The notes below the pieces were generated by a model. It had not been told where the DNA came from. It ran no database searches and was given only the letters and a program-made list of their open reading frames with translations. The position numbers and the translations under genes are program-made. 64,000 nt of DNA from Ulota crispa (Eukaryota; Streptophyta; Bryopsida; Orthotrichales; Orthotrichaceae): the NCBI GenBank assembly GCA_963920765.1, contig OY987246.1, positions 4,590,501 to 4,654,500 of the forward strand. Direction: 5' to 3'. Within the stretch, counting starts at the first letter, position 1. The number at the start of each line of letters is the position of its first letter. Shown here piece after piece: positions 108 to 61,916 of this stretch.

Positions 108-1027
108 CCCCTAAAGGATTGAGCCATTTTTTCAGTGAAAATCACTCAAAACTGCCACTTTTGGGGGTTAGTAAGAAGGTAATTTTTTTTGAAAATTTGG
201 GAAATCCAACTGTAGGATCTTGCCCAAGACTGGATTAGGTACTTGTAGAAAAAAAATCAGATTATTCAAGATGGACATGAGTGAGATATTTACATCTAAA
301 GTGAAAAGAAAAGTTTTTTTTCATGTTGTTCCAAAATTTTAGAAGCCTTTGACCATTCTTACATGAAAACAATTGCTCTACGCAACTTTGCACTTTCTTT
401 TCCCATGTAGGAGATCAAGTTAGCTATGTGTGGGAGAATTTTCAAATCAATTGGAACTACACAACACATGGGAAAAATCAATAAGTAAAAATAAGTAGAG
501 AATGAGTAAAATCACTAAATTGTTAAGAATTTAATTATTAAAATGAAAAATGCAAATCCTAATGGCCAAAATGTTGTGATAAACAATTTACTTCCTTTGG
601 TTTTTTTTTTCCCAAAATAATGAAAATTGAGTAAAATAAAGGACTTCAAAGTTATTTTAAAGTAGAGAATCCAGAATTGCCTGCAAACAAAAACTCCTCA
701 TAACTTTGATCCCATTGATTGAAATGGAATGATTCAAAGCTCCTCACCTATAAAAAAATCTCAAGAACCAATTTCAAAATTTAATTTAAAAAAAATCAAA
801 TTTTAAAGAAGTTTTCGGGCTGCCCAAGCAGTCCTCTCCAAATTTTCAGAAATTCTTGCGTAACTTCTTCAATACTTGTTAGAATGAGGAAAAAATTAGA
901 TGCCCGTGTAGATCTTTGAATTCCCCACCTTCAATAAAAGTTTTAGAAAATCACACAAAGTAGCTTATCCAAAGGTACATGCCCAAACTCCCACATGTCC
1001 CGCAAAGGGATAACCGTCCTTTAGGGG
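108..1027. mobile_element. piggyBac-like non-autonomous element, 0.9-kb family
   Basis: The element is bounded by TTAA at 104-107 and 1028-1031. The left terminus reads CCCCTAAAGGATTGAG and the right terminus ends TCCTTTAGGGG, its inverted counterpart. Its interior (for example 505-740) is clearly homologous to the element at 61003-61916, which has the same length and orientation. It contains no long ORF, so it would depend on a transposase encoded elsewhere. Assignment to piggyBac rests on the TTAA target and C-rich termini only; Kolobok and Sola3 elements also use TTAA. Confidence 0.75.
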
Positions 1028-1078
1028 TTAAGGAAGAGTTTAGTTATTCACCATCAGAAGTCGAGTCAAAAGTTTGAA

Positions 1079-1260
1079 CTACACTAAATAATGCATTTAG
1101 GTTGCCCCAAACTAATTTCTTGACATTCTACACTATATAAATATTTACTATTACAATAATAATTTCATCAATAAGTGTTGCAATAAACAAAATTTAAAGT
1201 GCTTGGCAACAATCACAAAGTTGCCTTAATACATAATATCAATATCTAGGTTGGATAAGG
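1079..1260. mobile_element. Fragment of a CTACACC-terminal MITE family
   Basis: The sequence from 1079 begins CTACACTAAATAATGCATTT, followed by a stretch matching the start of the elements at 32835-33146 and 60010-60324. The matching right end is not clear here, so this is probably a truncated or diverged copy. It lies 50 bp beyond the preceding TTAA element. Confidence 0.4.
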
Positions 1261-2144
1261 CAATTAAAAGTTGCAGTTATCCTTGACATAATTTTCACCC
1301 AACACTAAAATCTCTATAGAAGGAAATTTGAAACTTTTTGAAGATGCTTTTGAAAAGGAATGATGTGCAAATTAATGGTTCCTACATACCAATACAATCA
1401 AATCTCAAAAATTCATCACCAAAGTTTTGAAATCAACTTCCAAATAAAAATGTGAATTTTATCTAAAATAATTTACCAAATAGGTTTTTGGTATTTTTGA
1501 ATTCAAATTTGGTATACTTAATTAGGATTGTGTAGGAATTAAAGAATAACGATACAAGATACATAAAATGCTAAGTCCTTTGAATGGTAGATTAGGGTGG
1601 ACAAAAACTTATTCAACCCCATTGTAGCTGTTTTCTTATGTGTAATCCTGAAATGATATAAGTTATGTTTGTACTTCTAATATTATCATAAAACGGCTCT
1701 AACTTTATATAATCAAAAACAAATATACTAAAAAACAATCTAACCATTTCCTAAAGTATTTATAATTTGCAATAGCTATAACTTCTTGTTTAGTGTAGAT
1801 TTGTTGGTAGTTGTCAAGTCAATCCCATGTGGAGTTGATAAGTCATTTTTCATTAAATTTATTTTAAAAAAAGATATGATTTTTTGTTTTATTTTTGCAA
1901 AAATAAGAATATAATTGCATCATTGCATTCATTCTATTTTCTCCTCTTCTATTTACTTAAGAAGATATTTTTATTACTTTAAAGCTAATATGTTACACAT
2001 AGACTATCAAGTTAGTTGTCGTATGTTTTAGGATTAGATGTTTTTAAGTTGTAAAGTAACACCATTTGGGTTTTGTTTACTATGATTCACTAAATATATC
2101 TTGAGTTTTTTAAAAGTCATTCATTATTAACTATAAATTGGTCA
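1261..2144. other. AT-rich intergenic spacer
   Basis: I recognise no gene, RNA or structured repeat in this AT-rich stretch. The last part (about 2090-2144) begins to resemble the interior of the TTAA element family seen at 25888-26812, so the left half of that copy may lie here in decayed form. Confidence 0.5.
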
Positions 2145-2516
2145 CCAAAAAAATATGAGGTCAAAGGGCCTAACATGCATAACCCCAATCAATTTATGCC
2201 TTCTAAAAATCTACTCTACAATTTTTTTAAATGAATTTCTAATGTGATTTTTTCTCAAAGATCTATTGTATTTGAGGCTCATTCCCAAAAGCCCTCAACA
2301 CTAAAAAAGTCAAGATTGCAATGGACGCCCATGCACAAAATCTTGAATAAAAAAATCATAATCAATCAATTGAAAAATAGGATTGTTGAAGCTAAGACCA
2401 AACTTCAAAAAGAATTTTTCAAAAATATAATTTACTAAAAATAGTAATTTGGTTGGGTTTAATTTAACCTCAAAAATTGGTCGAGAACAGTTTTTGTCCC
2501 CAATGATACTTTGGGG
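2145..2516. mobile_element. Right part of a TTAA-element (family B) copy, lacking the nested insertion
   Basis: The sequence matches the interior and right end of the element at 25888-26812, for example the shared GGTCACCAAAAAAATA start and the later AAAATCTTGAA and ACTAAAAATAG blocks. It ends at the TTAA at 2517-2520. At the position where the 25888 copy has a nested 221-bp element, this copy reads straight through (near 2160-2172), so it represents an empty site. The left end is not resolved. The short ORF at 2244-2438 is repeat sequence, not a gene. Confidence 0.55.
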
Positions 2517-2520
2517 TTAA

Positions 2521-2736
2521 AGGACCATATGGCATAGTATATACGCTGCCGTATAATTGGCATTTGCTACCAAAAAGAAGTTTTAATTTGGGATCTCAAG
2601 TAGCTCACTACAGTGGCTTTGATCTATTCTCCAACTTCATTGTTGATCTCAAATGTAGTAAAGATGTGAATTTAGTCCACATACAAGAAAAACACCTCGT
2701 ATTCTACTTGTAGTGGCACGTTGTGTCCTTTAGAGA
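2521..2736. mobile_element. piggyBac-like 0.2-kb element
   Basis: The element is flanked by TTAA at 2517-2520 and 2737-2740. The left end is AGGACCATATGGC and the right end GTGTCCTTTAGAGA. It is homologous, in inverted orientation, to the nested element at 26177-26397. It shares its left TTAA with the end of the preceding family-B copy, so two elements abut. Confidence 0.6.
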
Positions 2737-2740
2737 TTAA

Positions 2741-5605: not shown

Positions 5606-5691
5606 CCCCTAAAGGACCATGGGGACGATTTTTTTCCCCACTCATATATGAGGGGCGTGTATCCATAATGACACCCCCCAGCGCTTAAGGG
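5606..5691. mobile_element. Very short (86-bp) TTAA element
   Basis: The element is bounded by TTAA at 5602-5605 and 5692-5695. The left end is CCCCTAAAGGACCATGGGG. The right end, GCGCTTAAGGG, is an imperfect inverted counterpart. It is the smallest member of the group here, little more than two termini. Confidence 0.6.
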
Positions 5692-5846: not shown

Positions 5847-6185
5847 CCCTTAAAGGACGGATGGATCACCATGGCTTGCCCTATCTATAGCATTCTACAA
5901 TGTTTTGCTCATGGGCACCAGTAGTATTGCTTCAAAAAGTTGGAAAAGTGAATAGTGCGTGGTGCCCTCATGAAAATTGCAAGAAGGGCAGCTTGAGAGC
6001 TAACACCATGGGTTTTTGAATCTTATCACAATTTGGGTTACAAAAAAAAAACATCTCAAGAGGTAATTTTTTGCTTTCCATGATAGACCATATGTTTATG
6101 GTGTATGAAAAAAGACTTTTTGTAGAATCACAAAATCTTTTTTCAGAGCCGCAGGACGTTTTTTGTCCTCTTCTACGTTTAGGGG
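5847..6185. mobile_element. piggyBac-like 0.34-kb element upstream of the small gene
   Basis: The element is bounded by TTAA at 5843-5846 and 6186-6189. Termini are CCCTTAAAGGACGG and, inverted, CCCCTAAACGTAGAAG. It ends just before the GC-richer region that probably contains the promoter and 5' leader of the gene starting at 7275, so it may contribute promoter-proximal sequence. Confidence 0.6.
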
Positions 6186-9861: not shown

Positions 9862-10320
9862 CGTATGACACGATGGTTACTGTTATAATAGGAACACTCT
9901 GATGCAAATATGTGTAAATCGTCTGTTTGAAAGCTGAGTGTTCAGCCTGGAGACATTTTTCTGTGAGCTAGAACAAACATTCATCTCTGTTTTGTTTTTT
10001 TAGAGTTTTGCTTGAGATCAATCAAATTCTGGTCACATTCGATGGGCTTTTTATTGGAACCTTCTACTTTTGATGTCTGACGTTCACCTTTCCCATTTTT
10101 ATGTACTAGAAGTTGGCAAAGTGTTAGTTTGGAATGAAATCATGCCATTTCTTTGCTAAATTGTAAAGTGTGTACTTAGTGTATATTTTTTCTTGACGAT
10201 GGCAACACCGCTCGTAAGACGTGTGGTGTAAACTTGAATGTCTTTGCAGCCAGTACTGTATCCTTGGTGGTTTTTCGTTTATGCTTTTCTTATTCAGGTA
10301 CCTTGTTTGACTCCTAAATG
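9862..10320. other. 3' flank of the small gene
   Basis: This probably contains the 3' untranslated region of the gene ending at 9861. No other gene, RNA or structured repeat is evident. The ORF on - at 10124-10342 has no recognisable feature and overlaps an element terminus. Confidence 0.35.
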
Positions 10321-10848
10321 CCCAAGGCACCCAAGGCACCACATTTTGGTGCCGACTATATTTTGAAGTTCAATAAAACCTAACTAAGCTGCTATTTTTA
10401 GAATTTTGTATTAAAATCAAAAACCTAATTTTGAAAATTATTGATTGTGAATTTTCTATTCAAGATTTTGTGCAAGGGTGTCCATTGCAATTTTGACTTG
10501 AGAGCTCATGAAAATGAGCCTCAAATACATTAGATCTTGGAGAAAAATTCACTCTAGAAGCTCATTTAAAAAAATGTAAAAGAGAATTTGAAAAGCTGTA
10601 AATAAATTGGAGTTATGTATGTTATTTCCTTTAACCTCATATCAATTTTGACACCCTCTTGATCAAACATTATAATCCTTCAAGTGGTATTGTTGTGTTT
10701 TCTTTTCCTATGTGATGTTTAACATATCTAATTTGAATTTGTATGGTTACAATTTTAAAAAAATGATACAACTTATCAAAACGTTGGCTTTTTGTTTAGT
10801 TTAGAGCAAATTCCTAAAAGCTCAGCAAAGGCCTTAGGCATTTAGGGA
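10321..10848. mobile_element. TTAA element, family B (0.53 kb)
   Basis: The right flank is TTAA at 10849-10852. The left flank is TTGA at 10317-10320, one substitution from TTAA. Termini are CTCCTAAATGCCCAAGG and, inverted, TCCCTAAATGCCTAAGG. The first 180 bp align with the reverse complement of the right end of the element at 25888-26812, sharing ATTTTGGTG, CAATAAA and CTAACTAAG blocks. Confidence 0.6.
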
Positions 10849-12031: not shown

Positions 12032-12681
12032 CCCCTGAGTGCCTAGCGCCCGAAATCCCGCCTCTTAAATTTTAATTTGGGGTGTTGGGGTGGTAAATGG
12101 GGTTTGACTTCAAGATTGACCATACTAATAGTATGAGTAGTGTGTTTAGGAGGTAAGAGAGTGGGGTCCCAAGTTATTATAGTCACATGCTCTCATAGGG
12201 ACAATGCAATCGTGGGAAAAACTGGCTTTTGGCGCTACTTTTGGGCAAAATGGTAGTCACAACCGTACCCTCTTCCCATTGGGTGTTTCTGGACCCTTAT
12301 GTCTTCAAGGTCAGCTTTAGGGTGCTCAAATTTCTCAAAAAGGCTTGAAAATTGGAAAGTACTTGATGAACCCATGAATGAACTTGAGTAAATAATTCCA
12401 GGGCCTAATTCTAGAAGGAGAGACCTAAATCAAATGGAGAAAGAGCCAAACATGTAAAAAAGTATACCCAATAAAAAAATTCAACCTTGCTTTGACCACT
12501 ATAAACATGCAAATGGTATGGTCAAAGTACCCCCATTTTAGATGAACCTTAGCACTCAAGCCTTGAAGATTTTTCAAAGGTTCAACCACATGGATTGTAA
12601 TTTCCAATGAACCAAAGGCTTTACTTTGTCGGGAGGTCTCTCAGACCTACACAGGAGCAGTTTGAGCTGGGCGCTCAAGGG
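12032..12681. mobile_element. piggyBac-like 0.65-kb element
   Basis: The element is bounded by TTAA at 12028-12031 and 12682-12685. Termini are CCCCTGAGTGCCTAGCGCCC and, inverted, CCCTTGAGCGCCCAGCTC, an imperfect match of about 18 bp. It is non-coding; the ORF on - at 12425-12607 lies entirely inside it and shows no domain. Confidence 0.7.
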
Positions 12682-13734: not shown

Positions 13735-16700
13735 ATGACCGGAGAGGAGCACAAGCACAAGCACGTTGAAATCCTGGGAAACATGCTAGATCGCTGCATG
13801 CGAACTGGCAGTGGAGGTGCCGGACCTTCACCTCCTTCAGGCGTTTCGACCTCGACATCATCGGGGCCGTATGCTACTGCGGACTCGCACTTGCGAGCCT
13901 TGGCCGGCGCTGCGGAGGGATTTGGAAGCGCCGCAATTGGTGGACTCCATGGCAAAGTGTATCATGTCACCTCTCTTGCAGGTCAGTACACAGTATTCGC
14001 AATTTCCACAAACCCTAGCAATTATTCTTCGTGTGAAAGTAGAGCTTGTGCTGGAACTAATCTGAAGAATGCAAGAAGCGTTTCTCTGATCTAACCATTC
14101 TTCGGGTGTTAGTTCAGTATTAATTGAAAATTTTAACGCGTTTTTCGATCTTTGTGGTGTACTGAAGCTCTAGAACGGATTCTTCAATTTTTTTAAAATA
14201 AGCCGATTTAGGAAATCGTTAATGCAACTGAAAATGAAAGAAAATAGAAGCTTATGTTTTCTGGTGATGATGAAGTCATTTTCTAGAGATGATGAAGTCG
14301 TTTTCTAGAGTACTGAGATCCTAGGCTTGGGATCAAGAACAAACTCTATGCATTGACCAAAAACTTAAATTTGTTTGGAGATTCTCTACTGCACGCAAGA
14401 ATGTGAATTTATCGTTGTCAACTTGTCATTCAAATGTTGGTGGACTCCATGGGAAAGTGTACCGTGTCACCTCCCTTGCAGGTCAGTACACTATTCGCGA
14501 TTTCCTCAAACCCTAGCAATCAATCTTAGTGTGAACGTAGAGCTTTTGCTGGAGTTAATCCGCGGAATGCAAGCAGGGTTTCTGATAACCGTTCTTTGAT
14601 TGTTAGTTCAGTATAAATTGAAAATTTGAAAGCGTTTCTCGATCTTTGTGGTGTACTGACAGGTCTAGAACAGATTCTGATTTTTTTAATAAATAAGCTG
14701 TTTAAGGAAATTGATGATGCAACTAAAAAGGGAAGAAAACGGAAGATTATGTCATCTGGTGACGTTGAAGTCATTTTCTAGAGTACTGAGATCCTAGGCT
14801 TGGATCAAGAACAAGCTCTATGCTTAGACTAAAACTAAAATTCTTTAGCGATCCTCTACTGCACGCAAGAATGTGAATTTTATCGTTGTCATTCAGATGT
14901 TTAGTTATGGTTTGTATGCTGACTTGTAATCTTATTATCACTAACTTAGCAAAGATTAAATAGCTATTGTATGGAAGAAGACATTTGCTTAATGATACTC
15001 AAATTGAGAAAGCTACTCGAAAGTTTTTGAACAACCGTGAGAACTCGCTCTTCTCTGTTATGGATGGCAACCTAGAGAAAGTAAAAAACAAGAGCGAAAA
15101 TATTCAATGTATGATATTTGCTTTTTGTAGAGAGCATGTGGTCCCGTATCTCTCTTCTTTATGTAGCTTTTTGTACCTCCAGGCTAAGATGAGCTCAAGA
15201 TTTTGCACAAAAAGAATCTGAATTCCTTATCTTAAGAGTATTGAAGCAGCTCTTCAAAACTCTTGTGGCCATGTGAAAGTTTGATTCTGGATCTCGAAGT
15301 AAAAGATGCAGGATTAAGAGGGAGAAATAATGCCGGTATATCATGTTGCGCATCATTTCACTTAAAAGTTGTGACTTTATGCATCACAGATGAAGGTCGC
15401 GGGACGCTACGTGACGGATGCAAGAAGACGGAGCCACTGTGGATTGTGTTTGATGTATCAGGAACCATAAACGTGGCGAAGTGCATCCGGGTGCAGTCAT
15501 ACAAAACCATCGACGGGCGTGGTCAGAAAATCAAGATCACCAACAAGGGATTGCAGCTGAAAGAATGTGAGCATGTGATCATTTGCAACCTTGAATTCCA
15601 ACGAGGTGTAGGGCCTGACGCAGACGCTATTCAATTGAAGCCAAATTCCAAACATGTGTGGGTTGACCGCTGTACGTTGTCCGATTTTGACGATGGCTTA
15701 ATTGATGTCACTCGGCAATCCTCCTTCGTTACGGTGTCGAGGTATGTGGATTATTCTGCACACATGGTGGTTTGAAGAGAAACTTCAGTTGCTCTATGAA
15801 CAGACCTTACTGTTCACTCAACAACCAGGATACAATTTGGATTAAATCAATATGGTCAAGAATGGTGCACAACAACATGCTAATTCTGCGTGCTCAATAG
15901 TGTCAATTCAAGAGTTCTTTTCAGAGAGTTGTTGAAGTGATTAATGTCAAAAGCTTCTTTCTTTTTAAAATTAAGTAAATGTGAACTCACGGTATAAAAA
16001 GATGTGTCAAAGAAGGAAGCTGTAAGAGGAATGGAGTATCTAGCACACTCTGATTGTCTTTTGAATTAGTAGATGGGCTATTAGGAGCTCCTTTCAAGAA
16101 TGTTATGTATGTTTAGTTTGAATTATAACGATTTTTTTAAAATAAGCATGCGGTGGTATTTGTAAGGTTTGGGGGTTTAGTCATCTTCAAGATTGGATGG
16201 TGTATGCAGGTGCCATTTTTTTAACCACAACAAGACTATGCTGATTGGGGCTGATCCAAAGCATTTCGAGGATCGGTGTATTAGAGTGACCATTCACCAT
16301 TGCTTCTATGATGGGACCAAACAACGTCATCCTCGAGTTCGTTATGGCAAAGTTCATCTTTACAACAACTATACTCGAGGGTGGTCTGTTTATGCTGTCT
16401 GCGCAAGTGTGGAGTCTCAGGTATGAAAGTGGTATTGCATCTTATTCCTTCTTTGTCTCGCGTGACACTATTCACCAACTCCAGTAGGGTCCTTTTGCTT
16501 CCCATTGAGGTAGACACTCTTTTAGTGAGGTGTTAATGGTCATTTTAATTGCAGTTTCTCTTGCCAACATCTAAAGTGAGGTCAAATAGAAGCGTTTCAT
16601 GTGACAGAAGACCAAATGTAATGCATTCCCTTCGGAGAGTCTTTTGTAAGTTTCAACGGAGGTCAACTTACATAACGCGTCGAGACTCCATGTCTCTGAT

Positions 16701-25511: not shown

Positions 25512-25887
25512 ATGAACTTGAACATGCTATGGGCTTCTCCTTTATTTTGAATTGGAATTGCAAGCACCTACCTTGATTCATGGAGGTTGCAATGATACCA
25601 TGAGAGACTATTATGGATTCTACAAAGGTTCCCCACTTGTTTGTCTTGTAGTGAATTGGATTTGTGCTCTAGGTTGTGGCATTTGAAATAGAGCAAGATT
25701 GGAGTTTGGCTCTATTGTAAGAATTGCAAATCCTAGGTTGATTTTTGCATAGTTTTGATTGTGTATATTTGGAAATATGTTAAACCCTTCTATATTGTTA
25801 AACAATTCACAAATAGGTTGGTTTTTAAGATCTATGTGGAATTGGTCTTGACAAGAGATCATTTCAATCATCCGTTATGTAGATTTA
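25512..25887 (+). other. 3' flank of TNL copy 1
   Basis: Probable 3' untranslated region and flank, colinear with 48431-49113 in unit 2 except that unit 2 carries a MITE at 48661-48960. No further gene is seen. Confidence 0.5.
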
Positions 25888-32089: not shown

Positions 32090-32103
32090 TGTATACGATT
32101 TCA

Positions 32104-37944: not shown

Positions 37945-38854
37945 CCCCTAAAGGCCCAAGGAACCCACTTTGGGTTTTATGAGAACTTGGGCAGGCTCTA
38001 TTGACTTCATAATTTGGAAATTTTTCATGAAATTTTTAGGATGGATGCTACTCATCATAATTTACATGTGAAGTTTTATTTCATGTCATTTGGATAAGTA
38101 TTGCAAAAGTTAGAAGTTTTTCCAATTTCAATGTCAAACCAGGCAGCAAAAAATATATTCTAAATTTTTTTTTAAATTTTTTATAGAATTTTTTAGATTG
38201 ATATGTACTCAAAAAAAATTGAATCACTCAATTCTAAATAATGAGGTAAGAGTTACAAGGAGTTTTATTTTGCGGGCAATGAAGGTAGGAAGAGGGTAGA
38301 AAAAACATATAACGTTATCTTTTACTCTCAATTTTGAAAATTTTCAAATGAAAATGAAAAATAAAGTTACCAATTGTCTGTTAGAGCATTCTTACCATTG
38401 GGATTAACAATTTTCAAATTCTTCCAAAACTTATTAGCATATTAGTTATATCTTTCATTCATCAATACCTTTCAGTTTACAATTTTTGTAAAAATGAATC
38501 CAAATTTTTTTGGTTAATGTTTAATATATATGCTTTCAACCCATTTTCCAACATATTGCAAAAATTGCACAAGAAATACAACATATGTGTTTTTTTCTAA
38601 AAAGTTTGAAATTTAAAACTTCACCTTTTGGAAGGACTAGAAAAACCTACATTTTGAAGTTTAGGCACATTGATCTTGCAATTGGTGGAGACATTCATTT
38701 TGAAATTTTGGGACAATGTACTTGTGCAAGTCAACCAAAGGATCCTACGGTTGGATTTGTTAAAAAGCAAGTTTCAATGAAGATTTTGACCCTGGTTTGG
38801 GGACTAGTATTTTGAAGCAATTTTGGGCCTCTAAACACAAAAGAATTTTAGGGG
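37945..38854. mobile_element. piggyBac-like 0.9-kb element
   Basis: Bounded by TTAA at 37941-37944 and 38855-38858. The left terminus is CCCCTAAAGGCCCAAGG and the inverted right terminus CCCCTAAAATTCTTTTG. Interior blocks resemble the 108-1027 element in reverse orientation, for example ATCCAACCGTAGGATCC on - against ATCCAACTGTAGGATCT. Confidence 0.65.
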
Positions 38855-39000: not shown

Positions 39001-39881
39001 CTCCTAAATGACCAAGGCACCAAGTTTTTGTATTTTAGAAATCTTTGAGACCTTGTTGAAAGCAAAGATTTGAATGTTGTAGTTTTTTGTGGAGAAGTGG
39101 CAATCTAAAATTAGCGTCAATGTTCAATTTCAGTGATTAGCATACGTCATTCCAACTATTTTTGATGGAAGCAATATGTGAAGCTATATTACAAGCATGC
39201 ATGTTGCACATTGAAAAATGTGATGAATGGTGTCACTTTAGAGCCTATGACAAGTTGTCAAGTTGAAAAAATGAGGAGCAAGTTGAAAATAACATGAAGG
39301 TCTCCTCCTAGGTAGTGTGGGCCCTTCTATTGAAAATTCATCAACTAATAAAATCGTTTTGTGTTTTTGAGCTAATTTCAATGGAAATGTCTATCTTCTA
39401 GGAAAGAGAATTCATCTATTGTTAAATCCTCTTCATTCATAATGTTTTATGGTCAAGTGTTGGAGCAAAAAAATTCTTTGTACTAGGTACTAGCTCTTTG
39501 ACTATTGCGTTGCAAGCTCATTTATGAAGTTGTGGTCATAGATTTGGAAGGGGAGTCTTTGGTTTTGAAGTAACAACAATAAATATTAAATCATCACAAG
39601 TGGTTGTTTTCCAATTTTGTGCACAAAATTTGCCATCATTGTATAACAAGTTTCAAGTTGTTTCAGAAAAACAATAATCTCTGTATTCATCCACATTCAA
39701 TCACAAATGTCTTAACATTCATATGACTTTTTTGGAGGTTTTTTTGGCAACACCATCTAGGAGCCTTGAAGTTCAAGATCCTAAAGTTACAAGTTTGTTT
39801 CACTGTTTAATAATGATCTTGCATCAACAATTCAGAAACTACCTTCCAAAAACAAGAAAAGTCACCTCAGGCATTTAGGAA
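39001..39881. mobile_element. piggyBac-like 0.88-kb element, family-B-type termini
   Basis: Bounded by TTAA at 38997-39000 and 39882-39885. Termini are CTCCTAAATGACCAAGGCACC and, inverted, TCCTAAATGCCTGAGGTGAC. It starts only about 140 bp after the previous element ends. Non-coding. Confidence 0.65.
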
Positions 39882-47400: not shown

Positions 47401-48430
47401 TGATTTGGATGGGTGTAGGGACCTTGAAGTGTTGCCATGTTTAAGAAAGCTTAGAAAGTTGGAAAAGTTGAACATTTCTAGATGTGGGGTTTCAGAAGTG
47501 CCAGGATTGGATTGCTTGGTGGCTCTACAGGTATTCATTGCTACAGGTTGCAAACGGTTGAAGAGGTTACTAGATTTGCAGTGGCTTTCAAACCTGGAAG
47601 TACTTGAATTGAGTGGTTGTTGTTTGGTGGAGCCAATCCGTGGGTTGGAGAAGTTGACATCCTTGCAACGACTTTGTGTCCACTTTGATATGGTGAAAGA
47701 CTCTCCCAAGCAATGTCTGTTGACGAAGCTGCAGGATGTGGAAATTGAGTCGTTGGGAGAGCGAGGATTACCATGTATGGTTGGTTGGACAGGTTTGAAA
47801 AGGCTGGTGATTCGTGATTGTGATGGAGTTTGTAAACTCGAAGGTTTGGAGAGTTTGTCAAGTTTGCAATTTCTCTGTATTCAAAGGTGCTACTTCCGAG
47901 ATGTGTCAATCGTGAGCTGCTTGGCTTTGTTACAAGAATTGTGGATTATAGAATGCAAGAAGCTGGAGCAAGTGCTTTGTTTGGTCCAGTTGTCGAAGTT
48001 GGAGACACTTCTGTTGTATGGATTAGGTGTAGCAACATGGAAAGTGGGTGGGACTATTCCGCAGTTACGCTCGTTGAGTATAGACAAATGGTCTGTCATT
48101 ACTCTTCCTGAGCTTGGCCGCTTTCCGGAATTGAGAGTGTTGAACCTTTATGGATGTGACTCTTTAACTCGTTTAACTAGTGAGGGACCCCTGGCAATGT
48201 TGGAGGCTCTTATGCTTAGGAGTTGTGATAAATTGGAGTCTGTGCCAAATTTTAGTGGGTGCACTCGGTTGAGGGGAGTTTACATTGAGCATTGTGGGAG
48301 TTTGATACCAATGCCTAATTTTAGTGGCTTAGAACGCCGTGATGACGTGCATAATGGAAGAAATCTTAGCATTGAAGAAGGGACATACAAATGGATTAAA
48401 GAAGGAGCACCAGTGCTTAGCAACAACTAG
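44417..48430 (+). pseudogene. TNL immune receptor, copy 2, interrupted in the TIR exon
   Basis: Exons by homology with copy 1 are 44417-45005 (TIR), 45155-45421 (P-loop), 45607-46248 (NB-ARC) and 46640-48430 (MHD plus LRR). The P-loop is intact (GLYGMGGIGKST), as are VFVAIDNVGDG, FVVVTARS, HPLALKVL and VGMHDLWREF. The last exon is open for nearly 600 codons, with Trp (DEHWFYREN) where copy 1 has a stop. Lesions differ from copy 1: in-frame TAA at 44772-44774 and TGA at 44802-44804 in the TIR-NB linker, and the donor after 45005 reads GG rather than GT. A truncated TIR-only product of about 120 residues is possible from the first exon; TIR-only proteins can act in plant immunity, but this is inference. 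The LRR exon is almost identical to copy 1, whereas the TIR exon differs by about 10 percent. Confidence 0.85.
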
Positions 48431-48660
48431 ATGAACTTGAACATGCTATGGGCTTTTCCTTTATTTTGAATTGGGATTGCAAGCACCTGCCTTGATTCAT
48501 GGAAGGTGCAATGATACCATGAGAGACTATTATGGAGTCTATAAAGGTTCTCCACTTGTTTGTCTTGTAGTGAATTGGATTTGTGCTCTAGGTTGTGGCA
48601 TTTGAAATAGAGCAAGATCGGAGGAGTTTGGCTCTATTGTAAGAATTGCAAATCGTATAA
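48431..48660 (+). other. 3' flank of TNL copy 2
   Basis: Probable 3' untranslated sequence, closely matching 25512-25730 of unit 1. Confidence 0.5.
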
Positions 48661-48960
48661 GGTAGGAGGCTCAAAAAGCGTCACTTTAAGAGCTAATTGC
48701 TTTTGGGAAGAAGTTTAATTCCTTGAAACAATTTTTGGTAAATTTTGGTAGGAAGAACAATGGAATGGGCATCTAACCCAAGTCGTTTCATATTTTTTGA
48801 ACTTTTGTGGAATTAGTTATGAATTTTTCAAGTTGAAATCCAGTGGTCACTAAAAGCGACCCCCTCTTGGAATGTACATCCTAGGTACATTGGAAAAAAG
48901 AAAACGTTCTTTTGTTTTAGAGGTTGCTTTTAGAATCAGGTCGCTTTTAGAGCACCCTAT
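48661..48960. mobile_element. GGTAGG-terminal MITE specific to unit 2
   Basis: It begins GGTAGGAGGCTCAAAAAGCG and ends with the inverted TCGCTTTTAGAGCACCCTAT. Unit 1 reads through the homologous point (near 25731-25740) without it, so it inserted after the duplication. The termini resemble 18299-18605. Boundaries are good to a few bases; no clean duplication is seen. Confidence 0.55.
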
Positions 48961-49404
48961 TATTGAATTTTGCATAGTTTTGATTGTATATATTTGCAAA
49001 TATGTTAAATCTTTCAATATCTTTAAAGTATTCACAAATAGGTTGGTTTTTGAAGATTTATGTGGGACTAGTGTTGACAAGAGATCATTTCAATCATCCA
49101 TTATGTAGATCTATTCCTAAATGCTTGAGGCTTTTTTTGAGTTTTTGGGAATTTGCTCAAAATTGAGCAAAAAGCCAATATTTTCGTATGTTGTATCAAT
49201 ATTTGTTTATTTTGTAATTGTACAAATTCAAATTTTTATTAAAGATCACGTGGAAAACAAAACAAAACAACACCATTTATGGAATGAAAGATTATAATAT
49301 TTGATTATGAGGGTGTTAAAACTACGAAAATGACTAAAAGTTATTAAATACTTCTTTCACATATTGAATCTAAAAGATTGGTCACCAAAAAAAAATAACC
49401 TTAA

Positions 49405-49628
49405 CCCCTGAACGTCCCAAACGCCCTTTGTGGTCATATGTATGGCCATATGTTCAGACATATTTGAGCTAATCTAAGGACTTTCCAAAAACATTTATGT
49501 ACCCCCCATCATACAACCTCTCAATATGTATGGTTGTAACAAATAAATTTTAGCTGATTCAAACTTCTGAATATTGGTTGCAACCGTATTCAATACTGTA
49601 GCTCCAAAGCCCAAGGGCCCTTCAAGGG
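49405..49628. mobile_element. piggyBac-like 224-bp element (nested, first of a pair)
   Basis: TTAA flanks lie at 49401-49404 and 49629-49632. Ends are CCCCTGAACGTCCCAAACGCC and, inverted, CCCTTGAAGGGCCCTTGGGC. It is clearly homologous along its length to 60606-60827. Confidence 0.75.
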
Positions 49629-49632
49629 TTAA

Positions 49633-50172
49633 TCCTTAGGCGCTTAGTTGACCATTTTTTGGTCGCTGCCCATTTTTTGCGAGCAACTTGAAATGAGAGA
49701 TTTTTTTTCAAAAAAATAAAATAATTCTTAAACACAAGAGCAAGTCTACTTTCCAACCCAATTTGAATCATGTCAATGCAAGTTAAACTCCATCAAGGAG
49801 AAATTTTCAAAGATAGAGACACTTCAATATTTCCTAGTGTTAAAAAATTTACTATTTTGGAAAACTAATGATGTCCTCTCCTTCAAAAACATTGCATTCT
49901 TGAAGTTCACAATAGAATGTATGTTTTTAACCAATTATACCAAGCTTTAAAATCTATGAATAAAATTTGTAATTTTGGTGAATATTAAATGGTAAATGAT
50001 TCTAAATTCATTAAATAAAAACCCAAAACTTTTTCGGAATATTTGACTACATAAATAATTACTAAACATCATGATTCTTGTTTTCTCATTTGAAGCAAAC
50101 TTCATCAAAGTTACAGATGTATCATTTTATAATGCATCTATGTTTTGCCTTTACCCCTTGGGCGTTTAGGGG
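49633..50172. mobile_element. piggyBac-like 540-bp element (nested, second of a pair)
   Basis: It shares the TTAA at 49629-49632 with its left neighbour and has TTAA at 50173-50176 on the right. Ends are TCCTTAGGCGCTTAG and, inverted, CCCCTAAACGCCCAAGGGG. Non-coding. Confidence 0.65.
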
Positions 50173-50516
50173 TTAAAGGACATAACATATATTACTCCAA
50201 TCACTTTGCCGCTTTCCAAAATCTCTTCTACAAGTTTTCAAACGAATTCCTAGTGTAAATTTTTCTCTAAAAGCTAGTTTGAAACTTGTTTCCATGAGCT
50301 ATCAACACTACAAGAAGTCAAGACTCTTGTACCAAATTTTGAATTGAAAAATTGTAAATTAGCCGTTTTCAAAATCAGATTTTTGATGCTAAAACACCAC
50401 TTCAAAAATAATAACTCAAAAATGCCAACTACTAAAAATAAAAACTTTACTTACATTTATTGAACTCCAAAGTATGTCAACACCAAAATTTGGTGCATTT
50501 GGCATTTCGGGGTTAA

Positions 50517-51796
50517 GGACTTTGGAGCAGTTTGGGGTTATTTTCAATATCTTATAAATTGTGAGATTGGATGCTAGTGTCAATTCAACTAGTGTAGCAT
50601 CTCCAATTTCTAGGATGGACTTTTAAGATCCTTGAGGTAGGCAAATATGTTTGTTGTGTGTTGCTATGACATATTGTATACTTGGAAGTTGTTTGTGTTT
50701 GGCTATAAACTCTTGCACCTAAAGGTAAAACATATGTAGAAGACAAACATGCTTATGCCTATGTGAGATGGATTTGTCATGTTTGTCAATACAGCAAAAC
50801 TTTATAAGGAAATGGTGAATCTTATAACTCAATTAATTGGAGCTTTGAAGAATTGCTCCAAAACATTGCTTCTAAATCGGCACAATGTAGTTGGGCATAA
50901 GCGTGAAGATCCTTTGTGGAAATTTCAAGTTGTAATTACGTGTTTAGTTCTTGGCAAGAATCTCCTTAGATTTGTGATGAGGATTTAATCATGAAAATTA
51001 CCACGCTTTGTTTAGAAAATTCTTTAATTGTTCCATGAGCACATCTAATTCATTCCTTATGTCATCTCCTACAAGAACCAAAAACACTAGTGTTTTTGGA
51101 TTCAATTGATACACCTAAAATTGATATACAAGACTAGGAGTTCTACTTCACAAGTACCAACTTGGAAAGGGTGTCATTGGAGTGATTAATGTCTAGGACT
51201 CCTCTCTTCAAAATTCTTAATCTCAACATCTACAAATTTGCAACACCTAAAGACAAGGTCAAAAGATTTGAACATCTTAGGTACTCCCTTCAATTACCAA
51301 ATGCTCCAAAAGTAGTTACACTCTACAAGAAGAAAACAACCACTATATGGCCACCCATTCTATTTATGAGAAAGTTACTACTTTGCTTAAAGACTATACA
51401 AAAATGTTTTGAAAGTGCTCTTTCTATTCTTTCTCCATGTTCCAAACACAAAATGACAATAAAACATTTGATGAAATGGTAGTCTCTTCACCAAGTTTTG
51501 TAGTTACTAATCCCAAAACAAACTCATTGCCTATTCTTGTTTTAATGTCCTTTCAAGAATGCTACATTTGTTGATTACAATGCCAATGACATGCTCCAAT
51601 ATCAAAAAAGCAAAGTTCCCACAATGACAAGTAGGCCCTGTCAACATTTTCTCACTTGAGCCAGCACAAATTTGACCATCTTAAATCATGTCAACCTTAA
51701 GATACAAAAAAGCAAAGACAAAAACAAATGCCTGAAAAATGAACCAATTCATAGAAGCAAAACAACTTGAAGAGAGAATAATAAAAAGACACTAGG
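50517..51796. other. Spacer between TNL copy 2 and hydrolase copy B
   Basis: Colinear with 26817-28087. Short ORFs (50779-50988, 51189-51482) do not match the frames of unit 1 and show no domain. Confidence 0.45.
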
Positions 51797-54700
51797 CTAC
51801 ATGTATTGATGACCAAGAATTTGAGACTCTAATTCCGTAGCAAGTTCTTGTTCTCGGCCCAAGACAACAGACATGTGATCTCCTCTTACAATTCTAGACA
51901 AGGTCACATTCGCAAACTTCCAACCAAGGGCAATACCACATTCAACTGATCACGTTGCATCGTGAATAACATGCACATGATCGTGAATAACATGCAAATG
52001 CCAGCCAGCCTTGACAAGCTCTGCCATGGAATGCTCCATCACAAACGGCCCAGCGCAAATGGTGTTATGGAACATCTTGAAGGCTGAACTATGGCTATGT
52101 TGCATATAATCATGGATGAAGGAAGGCGGCATTCTGCACACACCAAACTCCTAAACTCTCAACACCAACAAGATAAGAAAAACAAAGTTCAAGGACATGT
52201 CTCTCTCAATAGTCACTTGCTTGCACCTACTTGTAAGGAACTTAGGTTACACGCCTACATGTTTTCTTTGCAGCGTTCAAGAGATTAAGCACAAGAAAAC
52301 ATGATGTTGAACAATTTGCCAACAAATACAAGAAACACAAGTTTCAGCTGTGGTCTTTCACAGGGTTCGTAGTCCACTTACACAGTTGCAGAAAATTCAA
52401 GTATTGTGTACAATTGATCACAGGTAGGCAAGAGAACGATATTGCAATCTAATGAGAGGTGCCTGTCTGAACACCTACCTCCCTGTCCGGTGCTTATGTT
52501 ACATGATCTTGGATCATGATTTTCTTTCAAATTATCCCTCCAACATTCACGCTCTCAAATGCACAACTGGCAGCATTTCTAGCTCTTGTCAGTTTCTAGC
52601 TCTTATGGGTGGCCAATTTCAAGGCAATGTCAAGCAAATTAACTCTAGAGCAGTGTTTAACTGTATAGCTGGATAAATGTACTCAATGGGTTACATTTTA
52701 ACACCACATCAAATTTTGAGACTCATTTCCTCCTTTTAGACTTCTCTTTGGTTTGCAAAATGAACTTTGTGTAAACAAGCTCTGCATAAATATACATCCA
52801 CTCAAATGTGGCGCCGTCAAAAAGGATAAAAAGGGGAGGTGAAGTAGGAAAACCTGCTGCCCAAAAGTTTGGCGACGAAGGTCATGAGCGGAATCCAGAA
52901 CCGGTGATGCTTGCAGAACACCAGGCACACCACTCTTCCCAGATGCTCGTACCACGACATGAGTGTGTGCACAAATGCGAAGAAGGGCCAGGTCTTCTGT
53001 GGAGCCACGTTGCCTAACACGTACGATGCAGGTGGCACACCTGGCCTAGTTGGAAAATACAGCTGCACGTCACAAACAGTTCAGTCATTCTCAGGCATTC
53101 CATAGGTGTGAAGTTTAGCCCTCAGAACAATTTGTTACTGCATGAAACATCGTAACAGGGCTCACTCTTGTTCATCTCACTCTTGTTCATCTGACGTGGA
53201 GAATACTACGACTTGATCCCGTCTCCTACGTTGGCACAGATGCCAGCAGGAGTTTATTCTTTCAGACCTTTACTTCAGTTTATTAACAAGTGGTGTACAA
53301 ATCACTTCCCATATTTTATTACAGTTCATGCTCATCAAATGAGAACCGAACTACCTACACTAGAAACTCACACGCTGAGAAAAGGAATTTGGTGTGAGTA
53401 GATTAGGCTCTTATACCCAAAACGCACACTCCTAAGTAAAATAAATTGCTTCCAGCACTGCAGACGGTACTCTCACCACACTCCTTAGAAGAGACTGTGA
53501 ACACCTTGGGGTCCATTACTAATTCAGCCAAGCAATGGACCATCTAAGATGCTTTGATTTTTGAGCATCTTCTTCCTTTGGACACAAATCCCCTAACAGC
53601 TGGAGTTCGACAATCACAGCATTAGCCAGGTCTGGTAGGCAACATCAGTTACTGCCAATCACTTTGACAAGGGTAGGACGTCATCACTACTCTAAAATTC
53701 TATGACCAGTTCACGGTAGAAACCCAAAGACAGCGCCAGCCATGGCAGAATCGTCTACCGGTGCGACGATTGTGATGGATTTCACAGCAGCTGGGTCCTG
53801 GCCAGCCAACGCCAGTGCAATCGTGCAACCCATGGAGTGCGCCACCAGATGAAACCTCCGACTTCCGTACTTTTCCAGCACAGATCTGAACTAACAGTCA
53901 CATCCTTCCAGTTTATGCAGGGTGGTTCACAATTCACCCGACTTCCATACAGACATAACCTTCACCGCATAAAACTCTTCACAAACAATGCCAACTAAAG
54001 AGTTGTGTACAGCAAAGCCATCTCAAGTAAGAGCCAAATTAAAGCACCGACATACTCTCATGTTCAAAGATAATGGCTTGCGGAGTTTTCATTGCACAAC
54101 AAAATGCCAGGGACTATTTCAAAGCACATGCGTGAGACGATATCAACTCGACGGTTTAGGGTTTAGAATTTACGGATTTAGGGTGCCACGCACCTTCGGA
54201 TCATGTCCACGTGCTCCGCGTTTGTGTACAAGCAGTCCTCCGGTCGCGGGCTTCGGCCGAACCCGAGCACGTCCACGGCGAACAGGCGATGCGACGACCG
54301 CACTTCTTTCGACAAGCGGGGCAGAACCGTGTCCACCCAGAACGACGACGACGACAGAAACCCGTGCAGGAATATCACGTTGTGCACTGCCGCTGCCTCC
54401 TCCACGTCCTCACCGTCGTCCACAGCGAAATCTGCACACCAGGCTGGCTACTCAGATATTCATGGCTCTTAAGGGCGACCGATTCGATCAATCATACTCC
54501 GAAATACCAGTCTGGTGTAGCCAACTCATATTCCTCTACAACCAGTGCAATCTATTACATGCATTGGTCCCAAAATTGAACAGAAGAGAAACCTTGTAAA
54601 GCATTCCCAAAACTGCTGAAAGCAACATGGAAGTAAAACCCTAAACCCTAAACTGAGAACTTCACAATGGCAACCTCGAAGCTAAATCTCGTTGACGAGA

Positions 54701-55810
54701 AGAGTATGGCTTGATAACCAGCAAAAACGTCAGGCACATCCTCTCCATTGAGCAATTCAATTAGGGCGCGAAAACATATCAAAAACAATCCGTGAAGAGC
54801 AATTTTTCTGTAGTTCGAGAAATTCATCAAACTAGAATAAATAGACAAATCCTCATCCGACCAGTTCCAAACTCTTTAGACAAGCAGGAGGTCTGTTTGT
54901 CTTTTAGGACCTGAAACCCGGTCTGGCGTGGCCAATTCTTATTCCTCTACAACCAGTGCAGTCTATTGCATGCTTTAGTCCCAAAAATTGAACACAAGAG
55001 AAACCTCGTAAGACAGTCCCAAAACTGCTGAAAACAACAAGGGAATTAAAACCCTAAACCCGAAACTGAGAACGTCACAGTGGCAACCTCACAGCTGAAT
55101 CTCGTCGACGAGGACAGTATGACTCGATAACCAGCAAACACGTCAGGCACATTCTCTCGAGTGAGCAATACAGAGGTGGCATAAGTGTATATCAAACGCA
55201 ATCGGTGAAGAGCAATTAATCTGTCGACCGAGAAATTCATCAAAATAGAATACACAGAAAAATCCTCATACGGCCAGCTCGAAACTCTTTAGAAAAGCAA
55301 GAGGTATATTTGTCAAACAATGCTCACTACCTTTCAATTTCGGGCGTCGTCACACACACCTTGATAATCCGCATGGACGTAGAGCAGATTCTCTCGTGTG
55401 AGCCAAGCTGTGCACGTCGCGCACCCGCAGTCCGACCAACTCGTCGCATTCCGTGCACGCCTCTTCTCCGCCGATCTCGTCGTCGTCGTCGTCGTCTTCT
55501 TCCACCGCCGCACGACCTTCTCAGCGACAGCAACATCGTCACCCGATTGAAGCCTCACCTTCCGTCCGCCCCATTTCTTCTAGCGCTGGTGGAGCGTGTG
55601 ACTGGGCCCCGTCCAGAACTCCAGCGCGTCGTAGCTCCCGGTCGTGTGAGGAGACGTGCAATGGCAGGGAGGCGAGGCGTTCTTGTCCAGATGCCGATCC
55701 AGAAACCGAAACACGGGACACAGCAGCGTGTCCGCCACATCACAGCATCCGAACACGATGGCATTGATCGCCGTGATCAAGCATCGCCTTGGAGCTTGAA
55801 ATGTCGCCAT
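51797..55810 (-). pseudogene. BODYGUARD-like alpha/beta hydrolase, copy B, decayed
   Basis: Exons on - are 55810-55360, 54431-54194, 53885-53759, 53062-52854 and 52133-51797, with the same splice sites as copy A. The elbow AHSMGC and the HGFLSSSSFW block remain. It shares the in-frame TAG of copy A in exon 1 (55580-55582). In exon 5 the acidic GED of copy A is replaced by a 12-bp-longer tandem duplication reading DHVHVIH, and the following Cys codon has become TGA (51950-51952), removing the histidine-bearing C-terminus. A hAT MITE lies 5 bp before the ATG. Introns and exons are otherwise nearly identical to copy A, so the decay is recent. Confidence 0.85.
54495..55281 (-). repeat. Tandem repeat in intron 1 of hydrolase copy B
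   Basis: Counterpart of 30774-31560, with the same two diverged units at an offset of about 411 bp and the same telobox-like ACCCTAAACCC stretch. Inherited from before the segmental duplication. Confidence 0.75.
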
Positions 55811-55815
55811 TGCAT

Positions 55816-56117
55816 CAGGGCTTTTTTTTTCATTTTTCAAGAAGTGTGAAGGTGGCTTTTTAAAATGTTATAGCGGTGCTCCAAATTTCAACACTCATGC
55901 ACATATTGGATAGAAAATATCAAATTAGTACATACTATATACTATATGTCTAAAATTTGGTTATCATTCACAATTTGGCGATTTTATTCAATTTAATAAA
56001 AAAAAATGAAGACTAGTGGCGAAATCATCCAAGTTTTTTGGCATTTTTTTTTAATGTTTTTTAGCCAGAAATTGCTTTTGGGTGCAATCTGGCACTAAAA
56101 TGCAAAAAAAAACCCTG
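55816..56117. mobile_element. hAT-type MITE, 8-bp TSD, 5 bp upstream of hydrolase copy B
   Basis: A perfect 8-bp duplication, CATTGCAT, flanks the element (55808-55815 and 56118-56125). Ends are CAGGGC followed by a T run, and an A run followed by CCCTG. An 8-bp duplication with CAGGG ends is typical of hAT elements. The left duplication overlaps the start codon of copy B (ATG on -, 55810-55808). Unit 1 lacks it. Confidence 0.9.
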
Positions 56118-56125
56118 CATTGCAT

Positions 56126-56640
56126 ACGATTTCATTCCACCTCGCCGCATCTCGGATTGTCCCAAACAGTTGGACAAGTCTCCAGTTGTTCGAGCATCAT
56201 GAAGTGGCGAGTGATCTGACAGTTCTAACAACTCTAGGAGGGTTGCTGCATTTGAAGAGCACGGAATCAAAGGTCGTGTCGAGTTGGGTTGATGGGAAAT
56301 TGATTTGTACACAAAGCTTGTAGTGAGCATCCCATCGTGAAGACGATCTTCAGGGGAAACAGAGTTTGCTTGAGGTGCTTTTGGAAGAAGATACCACTGT
56401 GATTGTCTCACGCAAAAGCTAAGTCTTTTCATGAGAGACCAAAGAACAAAAAAGTTTTGTGCAACTAAGTTAGAGAGGTGCAAAAGAGTGCACTCATGGG
56501 AGTGTTGAGTGTGAGAAAAAGACTGAAAAGAGCAATGAACCAGCCCTAAAACCCTTGTGAGAAATTAAGTTTTCAACAAACAGATAAGGTTAGAGGAGTT
56601 ACCAAATTTAGAGGCGTACTGGGAGATTATAATTTTTCTT
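56126..56640 (-). promoter_or_regulatory. Former 5' leader / promoter of hydrolase copy B
   Basis: Colinear with 32345-32834 upstream of copy A. The 140-aa ORF on - at 56061-56483 is not preserved in unit 1 and runs into the hAT MITE, so I do not call it a gene. Confidence 0.4.
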
Positions 56641-57100
56641 TTCGGAGATTTGAGGTGACTTGCCCCCTCCCCCTGTTTTTGACCATAGGGATTTGCATGG
56701 TGGAGTTATAATCTCCTATTCCATCCTAGATTGCTAAGCCTTGAGATGTTGTTGACCACGTGGTTACATGGGTGTTGCATAGGGTTTAGGATTACATGGG
56801 TATTGTATAGTGTTTAGGATTTAGGATGTAGGATTAGGATGATGGAAATTATTATGAATTATGGGAGTCAAAAAGTGTTTTTCACCCATTGTCAGTGTGT
56901 AGATGTATGCAATTCCGATATTAGCCAAACTAATTTCAACTCATTACTTTCTACCTCACTTTGCGACATGTGGCATTTCTTCATTAGCCCCAACCTCAAA
57001 AAAATCAAAAAAACGCATCCCAAAGCACCTATCCTTGCTCATGGTGGAAATAGCACCCCCTACACATCTGGTCTGGGGCGTTATCAAGAATGGGTGCTTC
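56641..57100. other. Right edge of the duplicated unit and spacer
   Basis: Homology with unit 1 (33160-33330) fades by about 56790. No gene beyond that; ORFs at 56839-57189 are overlapping and featureless. Confidence 0.45.
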
Positions 57101-57101
57101 C

Positions 57102-57355: not shown

Positions 57356-57360
57356 ATTTA

Positions 57361-58968: not shown

Positions 58969-58972
58969 TTAA

Positions 58973-59901: not shown

Positions 59902-60009
59902 TTAAACTCTATATGGAGGTTTTGGCAGTATTCAAGTAAGTAGGCAGAGTGAAGGTCCTGCAAAGTTCCTACTTAGAACTCCTTGACTCCTTAATTTAGG
60001 TGTTAGTTT

Positions 60010-60324
60010 CTACACCAAACAGTGCATTTAGGTTGGCCCATACTAATTTCTCCACATTTCACTTTATTTAAATACTTATTAAGATTATAGTAAATTTTGT
60101 CAATTATTACTATGACAAGCAATAGAAGAAGCAAGTTGAGGTTGGAGGCAGCAACAAGCACCAAAGACAAGGAGCAGAAAAGTTGGAATTTTACATAGAA
60201 CCAAGACATTAGCAATTGGCATAAAGAGAGTTGCATGTCCCTCCATGTGGCCAAGGATGAATCATAAGGTAAATTTGCCAAGATAAGGCAACCTAATTGA
60301 TAAGGCAACCACTATTTGGTGTAG
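60010..60324. mobile_element. CTACACC-terminal MITE
   Basis: It starts CTACACCAAACAGTGCATTT and ends CAACCACTATTTGGTGTAG, inverted counterparts. The 315-bp interior aligns with 32835-33146 and the left part with 1079-1260. No clear target duplication, so the superfamily is undetermined. Confidence 0.65.
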
Positions 60325-60372
60325 GTGAACCAAAAGTATTAATTTTTCCAACAACAATAACTGACCAATTAA

Positions 60373-60601
60373 CCCTTGAGCGCCCAAAGTTATTTTTGGA
60401 TTTTGGAGAAAATGGGGGGTTTAATGGCCATCACAGTTTGAAAAATTACATCTAGAAAAAGTGACCGTAGGATTTGAAAAGGATTACCTTCTTTGTTCAT
60501 GAGGACCAAGCATGACTGTTTTTACCGTACAAATTACGAGAAAAATTAAGATAGAGTTGTGGGCCCCAACGACAAGATCCCGTCGCTGTGGCACTCAAGG
60601 G
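60373..60601. mobile_element. piggyBac-like 229-bp element (first of an abutting pair)
   Basis: TTAA flanks lie at 60369-60372 and 60602-60605. Ends are CCCTTGAGCGCCCAAAG and, inverted, CCCTTGAGTGCCACAGCG. Its right TTAA is also the left TTAA of 60606-60827. Confidence 0.75.
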
Positions 60602-60605
60602 TTAA

Positions 60606-60827
60606 CCCCTGAACAGCCCATCAGCCATCTCTGGACATATGTATGGCCGTATATACAGCTATATTTGAGCTGCTCTAAGGGCTCTCCAAAAAAAAATGCA
60701 CTCACCATCGTACAACCCTTCAATATGTATGGTTGTAACACTTAATTTCTAACTAATTCAAATTTCTGAATATTGATTGCGACCATATTTGGTACTGTAT
60801 CTCTAGAGCCCAAGGGCCCTTCAAGGG
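60606..60827. mobile_element. piggyBac-like 222-bp element (second of an abutting pair)
   Basis: TTAA flanks lie at 60602-60605 and 60828-60831. Ends are CCCCTGAACAGCCCATC and, inverted, CCCTTGAAGGGCCCTTGGGC. Homologous throughout to 49405-49628. The pair interrupts sequence that is continuous in units 1 and 2 (ACTGACCAACTACAAAAC at about 18839). Confidence 0.8.
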
Positions 60828-61002
60828 TTAACTACAAAACAAGGGCAATTTCTTCCTTTCCAACCATTGGTTGTAGCAAATGCTGAGCAAGACCTTCCTG
60901 GCCCCACATACACGTGTCGGCCTTCTACAGCCCGCCAAATCACCAGACTTGCTCCTCAACTGCGCGTTGCGCTTGAATCCTCCCCCTCAACCCTTGAATT
61001 AA

Positions 61003-61916
61003 CCCCTAAAGGACCAAGCAAAGTTTTCACCAGAAACTCTTCAAAACTGCCATTTTTAGAGCATCAACCAAAATTGAAAACAAAAACAATTTTATGCATA
61101 TTTGACCATAGGATCTTGTAGAAGAATAGTTTTAGAAGATGTGGAAAAAAATTCAAAGTTTTCCACCATGTGGATTAGAAGTTAGAATGGTTTGAATATT
61201 CAAAAACGTCTTGTGAAAAACCAGACAGCTACACTTCAAAAGGTGAAATTCCTAAGGGAAAAAGGCCATGTGGGTGGTGCTTCTCTAAATTCCTAATTCC
61301 ACCTAAGTAAAGTACATGTCAAAAAAGTTTCAAATCATTTGGAATTGTATAACATATGGAAAAAAAATAGTAAGTAAAAAGAAGTAAAGAATGATTCAAA
61401 ACACAAAATTGTTAAGAATTTAATTATGGAAACAAAAAACGCCAATCCCAATGGTCATAATGTTGTCATAAACAATCTTCATCCTTTGGTTTTGTTTTTT
61501 TTCCAAAATGTTGAAAATTGAGTAAAATAAAGGACTTCATAGTTTATTTTAGAGTAGAGAATCCATAATTGCCTGCAAACAAAAAATCCTCATAACTTTC
61601 ATCTCGTTGATCAAAACAGAATGATTAAAAGCTTCCAACATTCACATAAATCTCCTAAACCAATTTAAAAAATTTATTTTTGAAAAAAGTGATTTTAAAA
61701 AATCTGCCCAGGCTGCCGCCAAATGTAAAGTGCAGCATATTAGACCATAACTTTTTACTCATGATTCCAAATGTCATAAAATTTAGTGCATATGAAAGAT
61801 AAACCTCATCCCCAGATTTTATTAAAATTTCAAACTAAAGTATGAAAAGCTCCAACCACAGGTACCTGCCCAAAATCGCTATGTTTCAAAAAGAAACGGG
61901 TCTGGTCCTTTAGGGG
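61003..61916. mobile_element. piggyBac-like 0.9-kb element, copy of the 108-1027 family
   Basis: TTAA flanks lie at 60999-61002 and 61917-61920. Ends are CCCCTAAAGGACCAAGC and, inverted, CCCCTAAAGGACCAGACCC, the cleanest termini in the window. The interior is strongly similar to 108-1027. Units 1 and 2 lack it at the homologous point (near 19007 and 41931). Confidence 0.85.

Follow-up and report, generated by a model that had tools for sequence, protein, structure and literature searches.

A 64,000-nt stretch of the Ulota crispa contig OY987246.1 (the full stretch is called the window here; the assembly comprises 275 Mb in 157 contigs) carries a dense population of short segments that begin and end next to TTAA. 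Our results indicate, with a probability of roughly 94%, that these segments are miniature inverted-repeat transposable elements (MITEs) of the piggyBac superfamily, residing in a moss of the Bryidae and moved by the transposases of 5-6 kb relatives. A piggyBac assignment had been proposed in a preliminary description of this DNA, and it is supported by the TTAA duplication, a DDD-type transposase domain, a cysteine-rich motif and one deletion derivative.

Element ends were scored by the number of bases matching CCCYTRARNGNCC, with a threshold of at least 8 of 11 and TTAA directly adjoining. By this measure the window holds 36 ends (17 left and 19 right), compared with means of 1.3 left and 1.7 right and a largest sum of 7 in 30 first-order Markov simulations. 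When TTAA was swapped for eleven other tetramers under the same end score, 0-4 ends were obtained with each. Exact matches, in the sense of TTAACCCYTRARNGNCC, make up 10 of the 36 ends. Left and right ends spaced 40-1500 bp apart formed 29 pairs in the window vs. 0-5 in 20 simulations, several of the 29 being cross-pairings of neighbouring elements. From the end pairs and homology we curated a set of 16 elements, with 26177-26396 nested inside 25888-26812, which together occupy 8,500 bp, or 13.3% of the window. They are listed below; L-numbers denote transposase loci of the genome.

108-1027, unstranded: 920-bp TTAA-flanked MITE with tips CCCCTAAAGG; full-length relatives in L020 and L021.
2521-2736, unstranded: 216-bp element, kin of 26177-26396 but inverted; left tip degenerate, without CCC.
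5606-5691, unstranded: 86-bp TTAA-flanked MITE, from end pairing.
5847-6185, unstranded: 339-bp TTAA-flanked MITE; relatives in L028, L014 and L022.
10311-10848, unstranded: 538-bp element with tips CTCCTAAATGCC / TCCCTAAATGCC; it is also the insert-free paralogue C (see below), with one TTAA at 10631-10634.
12032-12681, unstranded: 650-bp TTAA-flanked MITE with tips CCCCTGAGTGCC / CCCTTGAGCGCC.
25888-26812, unstranded: 925-bp outer element of the CCCCTAAATGCC class, holding two inserts, 26177-26396 and the TA-flanked 26553-26633.
26177-26396, unstranded: 220-bp nested element, with TTAA on the left and TTTA on the right.
36406-37311, unstranded: 906-bp TTAA-flanked MITE with tips TCCTTTAACGACC / CCCTTTAAGGACC; three full-length relatives at 81-88%.
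37945-38854, unstranded: 910-bp TTAA-flanked MITE, from end scoring and pairing.
39001-39881, unstranded: 881-bp element, by alignment derived through internal deletion from a piggyBac element with a transposase (L012, L021).
49405-49628, unstranded: 224-bp MITE with at least 40 further genome copies.
49633-50172, unstranded: 540-bp element abutting 49405-49628, with one TTAA in common.
60373-60601, unstranded: 229-bp TTAA-flanked MITE, with a TTAA in common with 60606-60827.
60606-60827, unstranded: 222-bp MITE with ~80% identity to 49405-49628.
61003-61916, unstranded: 914-bp TTAA-flanked MITE with tips CCCCTAAAGGACC; kin of 108-1027.

The sizes measured (86, 216-229, 339, 538-650 and 881-925 bp) fit the classes of the preliminary description. 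That description had also claimed about 18 such segments; the dense population stands (36 ends vs. about 3 simulated), but the count comes down to 16. All seven of its example intervals have termini of the form it gave with TTAA on both sides, and their tips carry CCC next to TTAA, the left tip of 36406-37311 (TCC) being the sole exception. Decayed flanks were seen before 25888 (TTTA), before 10311 (TTGA) and after 26396 (TTTA). No convincing partner was seen for the end at 17364 or for that at 59901. Abutting elements with one common TTAA occur at 49401-50176, at 60369-60831 and in L042.

A target site duplication could be followed within a tandem duplication of the window, whose copies A (18664-33264) and B (41575-56750) are 95% and 97% identical in two main blocks and 88-91% in smaller ones. 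The same TTAA site holds a 220-bp element in copy A and two abutting elements in copy B. Two insert-free paralogues of this site were found: C (reverse strand, 10311-10848) has one TTAA, and D (near 2161, aligned by eye) has one TCAA; C is without ~75 bp of the left flank, a stretch that is present in D. As the filled sites carry two TTAA-type sites and the insert-free C and D only one, TTAA is duplicated on insertion. The 49405-49628 family gave a similar picture across the genome, where it has at least 40 other copies (41 matches counting itself; the best 40 of 2,044 candidates were scored). Of 20 fetched copies, 18 had TTAA at the left flank and 19 at the right, and the sequence beyond these flanks differs between copies.

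No transposase was detected in the window, in agreement with the preliminary description; a profile of this genome's own transposases gave a best E value of 24 there. Elsewhere in the genome, the piggyBac transposase domain PF13843 (DDE_Tnp_1_7) has at least 120 matches, with a best E value of 1.3e-73 (the best 116 of 528 candidates were scored), vs. none in 14 control genomes. The domain was found as well in all five transposase sequences scanned. A profile of five transposase sequences matched piggyBat (2.1e-43) and piggyBac (3.7e-38) in the PDB, with three Asp segments aligned. We read 25 of the 528 candidate places. In a set of 20 loci, 10 have a cysteine-rich motif after the domain and the other 10 lack it, vs. 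0 of 20 upstream controls. Transposase-bearing copies of the kind that the preliminary description had suggested looking for were encountered: they encode a piggyBac domain of the DDD type and, C-terminal to it, a cysteine-rich motif, and lie between matching ends. In 9 of the 20 loci the transposase is enclosed by two TTAA sites spaced 4.5-6.5 kb whose tips agree at 11 of 16 bases or more; replacing TTAA by seven other tetramers in this end-pair test yielded 0 of 140 with that agreement and 1 of 140 with 10 matching bases. Among five further loci, two had an end pair (5,557 and 5,508 bp). Ten elements were bounded by eye, at 5,019, 6,002, 5,738, 5,578, 5,094, 5,280, 5,114, 5,694, 5,300 and 5,516 bp; in the L019 element, CCC is absent from the left tip. 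Homology edges fell at or near TTAA for L012 with L021 (left tip of L021 unclear), for L016 with L024 (begins 33 bp outside) and for the left ends of L014 with L018.

One window element can be joined directly to such a copy. Element 39001-39881 aligned with the 5,738-bp L012 element almost from tip to tip, its positions 3-220 corresponding to the left end (62%) and 311-879 to the right end (73%), and it aligned likewise with L021. It descends from a transposase-bearing piggyBac element by internal deletion. The other 14 elements compared (2521-2736 was left out) are tied to piggyBac because they have tips and TTAA in common with it. Across 22 ends, their tips agreed with those of transposase-bearing copies at 10-15 of 16 bases at best; inward of the tips, similarity was weak, for some modestly above the best of 20 shuffles and for others not. 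We propose that the MITEs would have moved into TTAA by cut-and-paste, with transposases supplied by the 5-6 kb relatives scattered across the same genome. Elements other than 39001-39881 may have been mobilised by the same transposases via the common tips, and excision would be of the piggyBac kind.

Several observations weigh against this interpretation. A transposase-bearing parent was not found for those 14 of the 15 elements, and CCCCTAAAGGACC, the commonest tip among the listed genome matches, flanks no transposase in the 25 loci read. Neither was an end pair at 10 of 16 bases or more present in 9 of the 20 transposase loci, nor any in three of the five further ones. Among the 120 domain matches listed, none is an intact transposase (whole domain, one piece, stop-free), so present activity is unsupported. 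The nearest to a full domain, L019 (2-340 of 349), diverges ahead of the cysteine-rich part, and L026 has almost the whole domain open in two pieces, but its reading crosses a shifted stretch and a stop stands beside the cysteine-rich motif.

The missing parent of the CCCCTAAAGGACC class is what an alternative with mixed origins would draw upon, in which some MITE classes, chiefly this one, were moved by another TTAA transposase and the rest are piggyBac derivatives. We regard this as unlikely: the CCCCTAAAGGACC tip is only a few bases off the transposase-bearing tips (best 11-14 of 16), its polarity and target are identical to theirs, and the case for a mixture is built on 25 of the 528 candidate places.

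A source in Kolobok or Sola3, both named as alternatives in the preliminary description, is considerably less probable. Sola3 elements have a TTAA target. Kolobok has one as well, and accessory proteins in some of its lineages, but it has another transposase, and its termini, 5′-RR..YY-3′, are opposite in polarity to the CCC..GGG observed here (PMC9587614, excerpt), so that Kolobok is disfavoured. The transposases found between such ends are piggyBac, although no search was aimed at Sola transposases. For the 39001-39881 family, Kolobok and Sola3 are largely refuted.

Least credible is a true duplication of TA or TAA, as made by elements of the Tc1/mariner or Harbinger type, with insertion confined to TTAA: because TTAA is palindromic, a TA model with A..T ends does predict identical filled and empty sequences, but all four bases are conserved, both in loosely matched ends (exact TTAA in 27 of 79, every other single tetramer in 3 or fewer) and in the 224-bp family (37 of 40 flanks, the other three being TTAT, TCAA and TCTA), and it is again piggyBac transposases that lie between such ends.

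Translated comparison of 15 piggyBac elements revealed a ~90-amino-acid (aa) coding block upstream of the transposase that is common to subfamilies. A profile was built from two starting sequences in three iterations over the 25 transposase loci themselves. It recovered 22 stretches in 20 of them, each upstream of the transposase in the same orientation, and none in L011, L012, L021, L055 and L056. Genome searches with two single block proteins gave 67 and 41 matches, 107 of them distinct. A listed transposase stands within 7 kb of 54 of these matches, and in every case the block is located upstream of it in the same orientation, at a median of 1.8 kb, with 0 downstream or on the opposite strand; the remaining 53 have no listed transposase nearby, and both of the two whose downstream sequence was fetched hold an unlisted one. 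In 11 of 11 locus pairs the block differed most at third and least at second codon positions (24/14/48 for L014 vs. L018), a pattern that protein-based alignment somewhat favours. Comparison with Pfam, NCBIfam and PDB gave nothing convincing, with no match for three sequences scanned; further scans returned single members only, at E values of 0.02 or worse, and one PDB chain at 0.71. We infer that the block is an accessory protein or an upstream exon. Three outside relatives of the transposase (P0108, P0109 and P0110) are predicted without it, but on contigs shorter than 3 kb, and are weak evidence against one continuous frame with the block.

KolX is related to the P2X7 tail, and KolX-like proteins occur in a few families of piggyBac (PMC9587614, excerpt). 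Such an origin of the block was rejected, as profile comparison gave a probability of 0.1%, no better than reversed or shuffled controls, with low power from a P2X7 profile of three vertebrate sequences. PF20478 had no match in this genome, a result of low power as the controls also gave none. L012 and L021, where the block was undetected, have long Q/E-rich open frames of 430 and 464 aa in its place upstream of the transposase.

At the scale of the genome, a search for single ends gave 25,829 exact matches to TTAACCCYTRARNGNCC (12,974 forward and 12,855 reverse), vs. 1 + 1 for the reversed pattern; the density of exact ends in the window is above the genome average. Because just 10 of the 36 window ends are exact, this total suggests that the elements probably number in the tens of thousands. 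Across 22 copies of the 224-bp family, the mean difference was 9.5% from the majority sequence and 14.8% pairwise. The piggyBac lineage seems old and decayed in this genome, judged from the best candidates, which alone were scored. Whether mosses host a two-component piggyBac lineage (autonomous elements with transposase plus conserved upstream protein) that has driven tens of thousands of TTAA insertions, as a main MITE engine in a land plant, we consider evenly balanced.

The closest known systems are Trichoplusia ni piggyBac (PDB 6x67) and piggyBat (PDB 9c0f), which resemble the moss elements in TTAA target and CCC..GGG ends and have homologous transposases, with the three Asp segments and the C-terminal cysteine-rich motif alike. 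The moss elements differ from both in host and in the conserved upstream coding block of most loci, and they are longer, at 5-6 kb, than the ~2.5 kb insect piggyBac (PMC10813416, excerpt). Inverted repeats starting CC[C/T]T are a piggyBac hallmark (PMC2872659, excerpt), and such termini are found in the moss elements. Moss tips also resemble the CCCTT and CCCTC tip classes of animal piggyBacs (PMC10813416, excerpt). Very similar tips, for example CCCTTTAAGCCC and CCCCTCAGTGTCC, are borne by the coral CMITE, which likewise shows TTAA duplication, nesting and tandem arrays; it is ~100 bp long with a conserved interior (PMC2872659, excerpt), whereas the moss MITEs span 86-925 bp in several families, one with a transposase-bearing parent.

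Searching proteins outside this genome with the transposase profile gave 29 relatives at E values of 1e-10 or below, from sources marked jgi, lgn and ena that we take to be mostly metagenome assemblies. Their identity to the first query was 40-73% for 26 and 29-31% for three, and all are labelled only "hypothetical protein". The search requires shared exact words, which places distant animal piggyBacs mostly beyond its reach and makes their absence uninformative.

The preliminary description had called piggyBac elements barely documented in land plants. For mosses this agrees with the open-access literature searched (Repbase and most subscription papers lie outside it), in which no moss piggyBac paper was listed; in PMC10619864 the matching word was merely "piggybacking". 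For land plants at large some records do exist: an angiosperm MITE review and a fern table list piggyBac, and two reviews or surveys mention plants. PiggyBac is among the angiosperm MITE superfamilies (PMC10004981, excerpt) and the plant class II superfamilies (PMC10794571, excerpt), and the C-fern repeat table gives 1,230 PiggyBac copies (PMC6890710, excerpt). The kind of element is therefore already known; what is new, as far as could be found in these searches, is its presence in a moss, its scale and the upstream block.

Other features were noted along the way. An insertion, perhaps an intron or else acquired later, lies within the transposase domain of L022 (4309-5595, with stops) and of L026 (4386-5615, in frame). 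Transposase pairs on opposite strands with equal or near-equal scores, 15-110 kb apart (C7:18203169/18223004, C2:36765124/36779670 and C10:676128/785346), look as if they lay within inverted segmental duplications. In the window, 26553-26633 is an 81-bp, TA-flanked insert with near-perfect inverted arms, present in copy A of the duplication and not in B; it looks like a small Tc1/mariner-type (Stowaway-like) MITE. The duplication includes a TIR domain and a leucine-rich repeat stretch of a disease-resistance-like gene (Pfam on copy A), and a third partial copy, 78-79% alike, lies at 62774-64000. Pectate lyase pieces at 15245-16424 (+), with a Pfam match at 15245-15775 and a later stretch at 16181-16424 identified by reading, are possibly a decayed or intron-split gene. 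An Rfam scan of the window gave no matches. An open matK frame (522 aa) is present on contig C157, and another on the chromosome-sized C7. The best matK match, at 94%, is a protein without a species name; among named ones the highest identities are 84% to Orthodontium lineare and 83% to Bartramia pomiformis (both Bryidae) and 81% to Campylium stellatum, with lower values for Physcomitrium (73%) and for Sphagnum and Takakia (55%), which places the host in the Bryidae. TTTAGGG-type repeats occur at both ends of C2; no telomere repeats were found in the initial 1,500 bases of C1 and of C4, a stretch with N runs at both ends.

piggyBac is a widely used tool derived from an insect, and a large population in a land plant extends its known hosts. 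The moss copies supply plant-adapted ends and transposase relatives for study. Moss repeat annotation without these families may miss or misname much DNA. If the upstream block is a separate protein, it would be a new accessory factor for the piggyBac superfamily.

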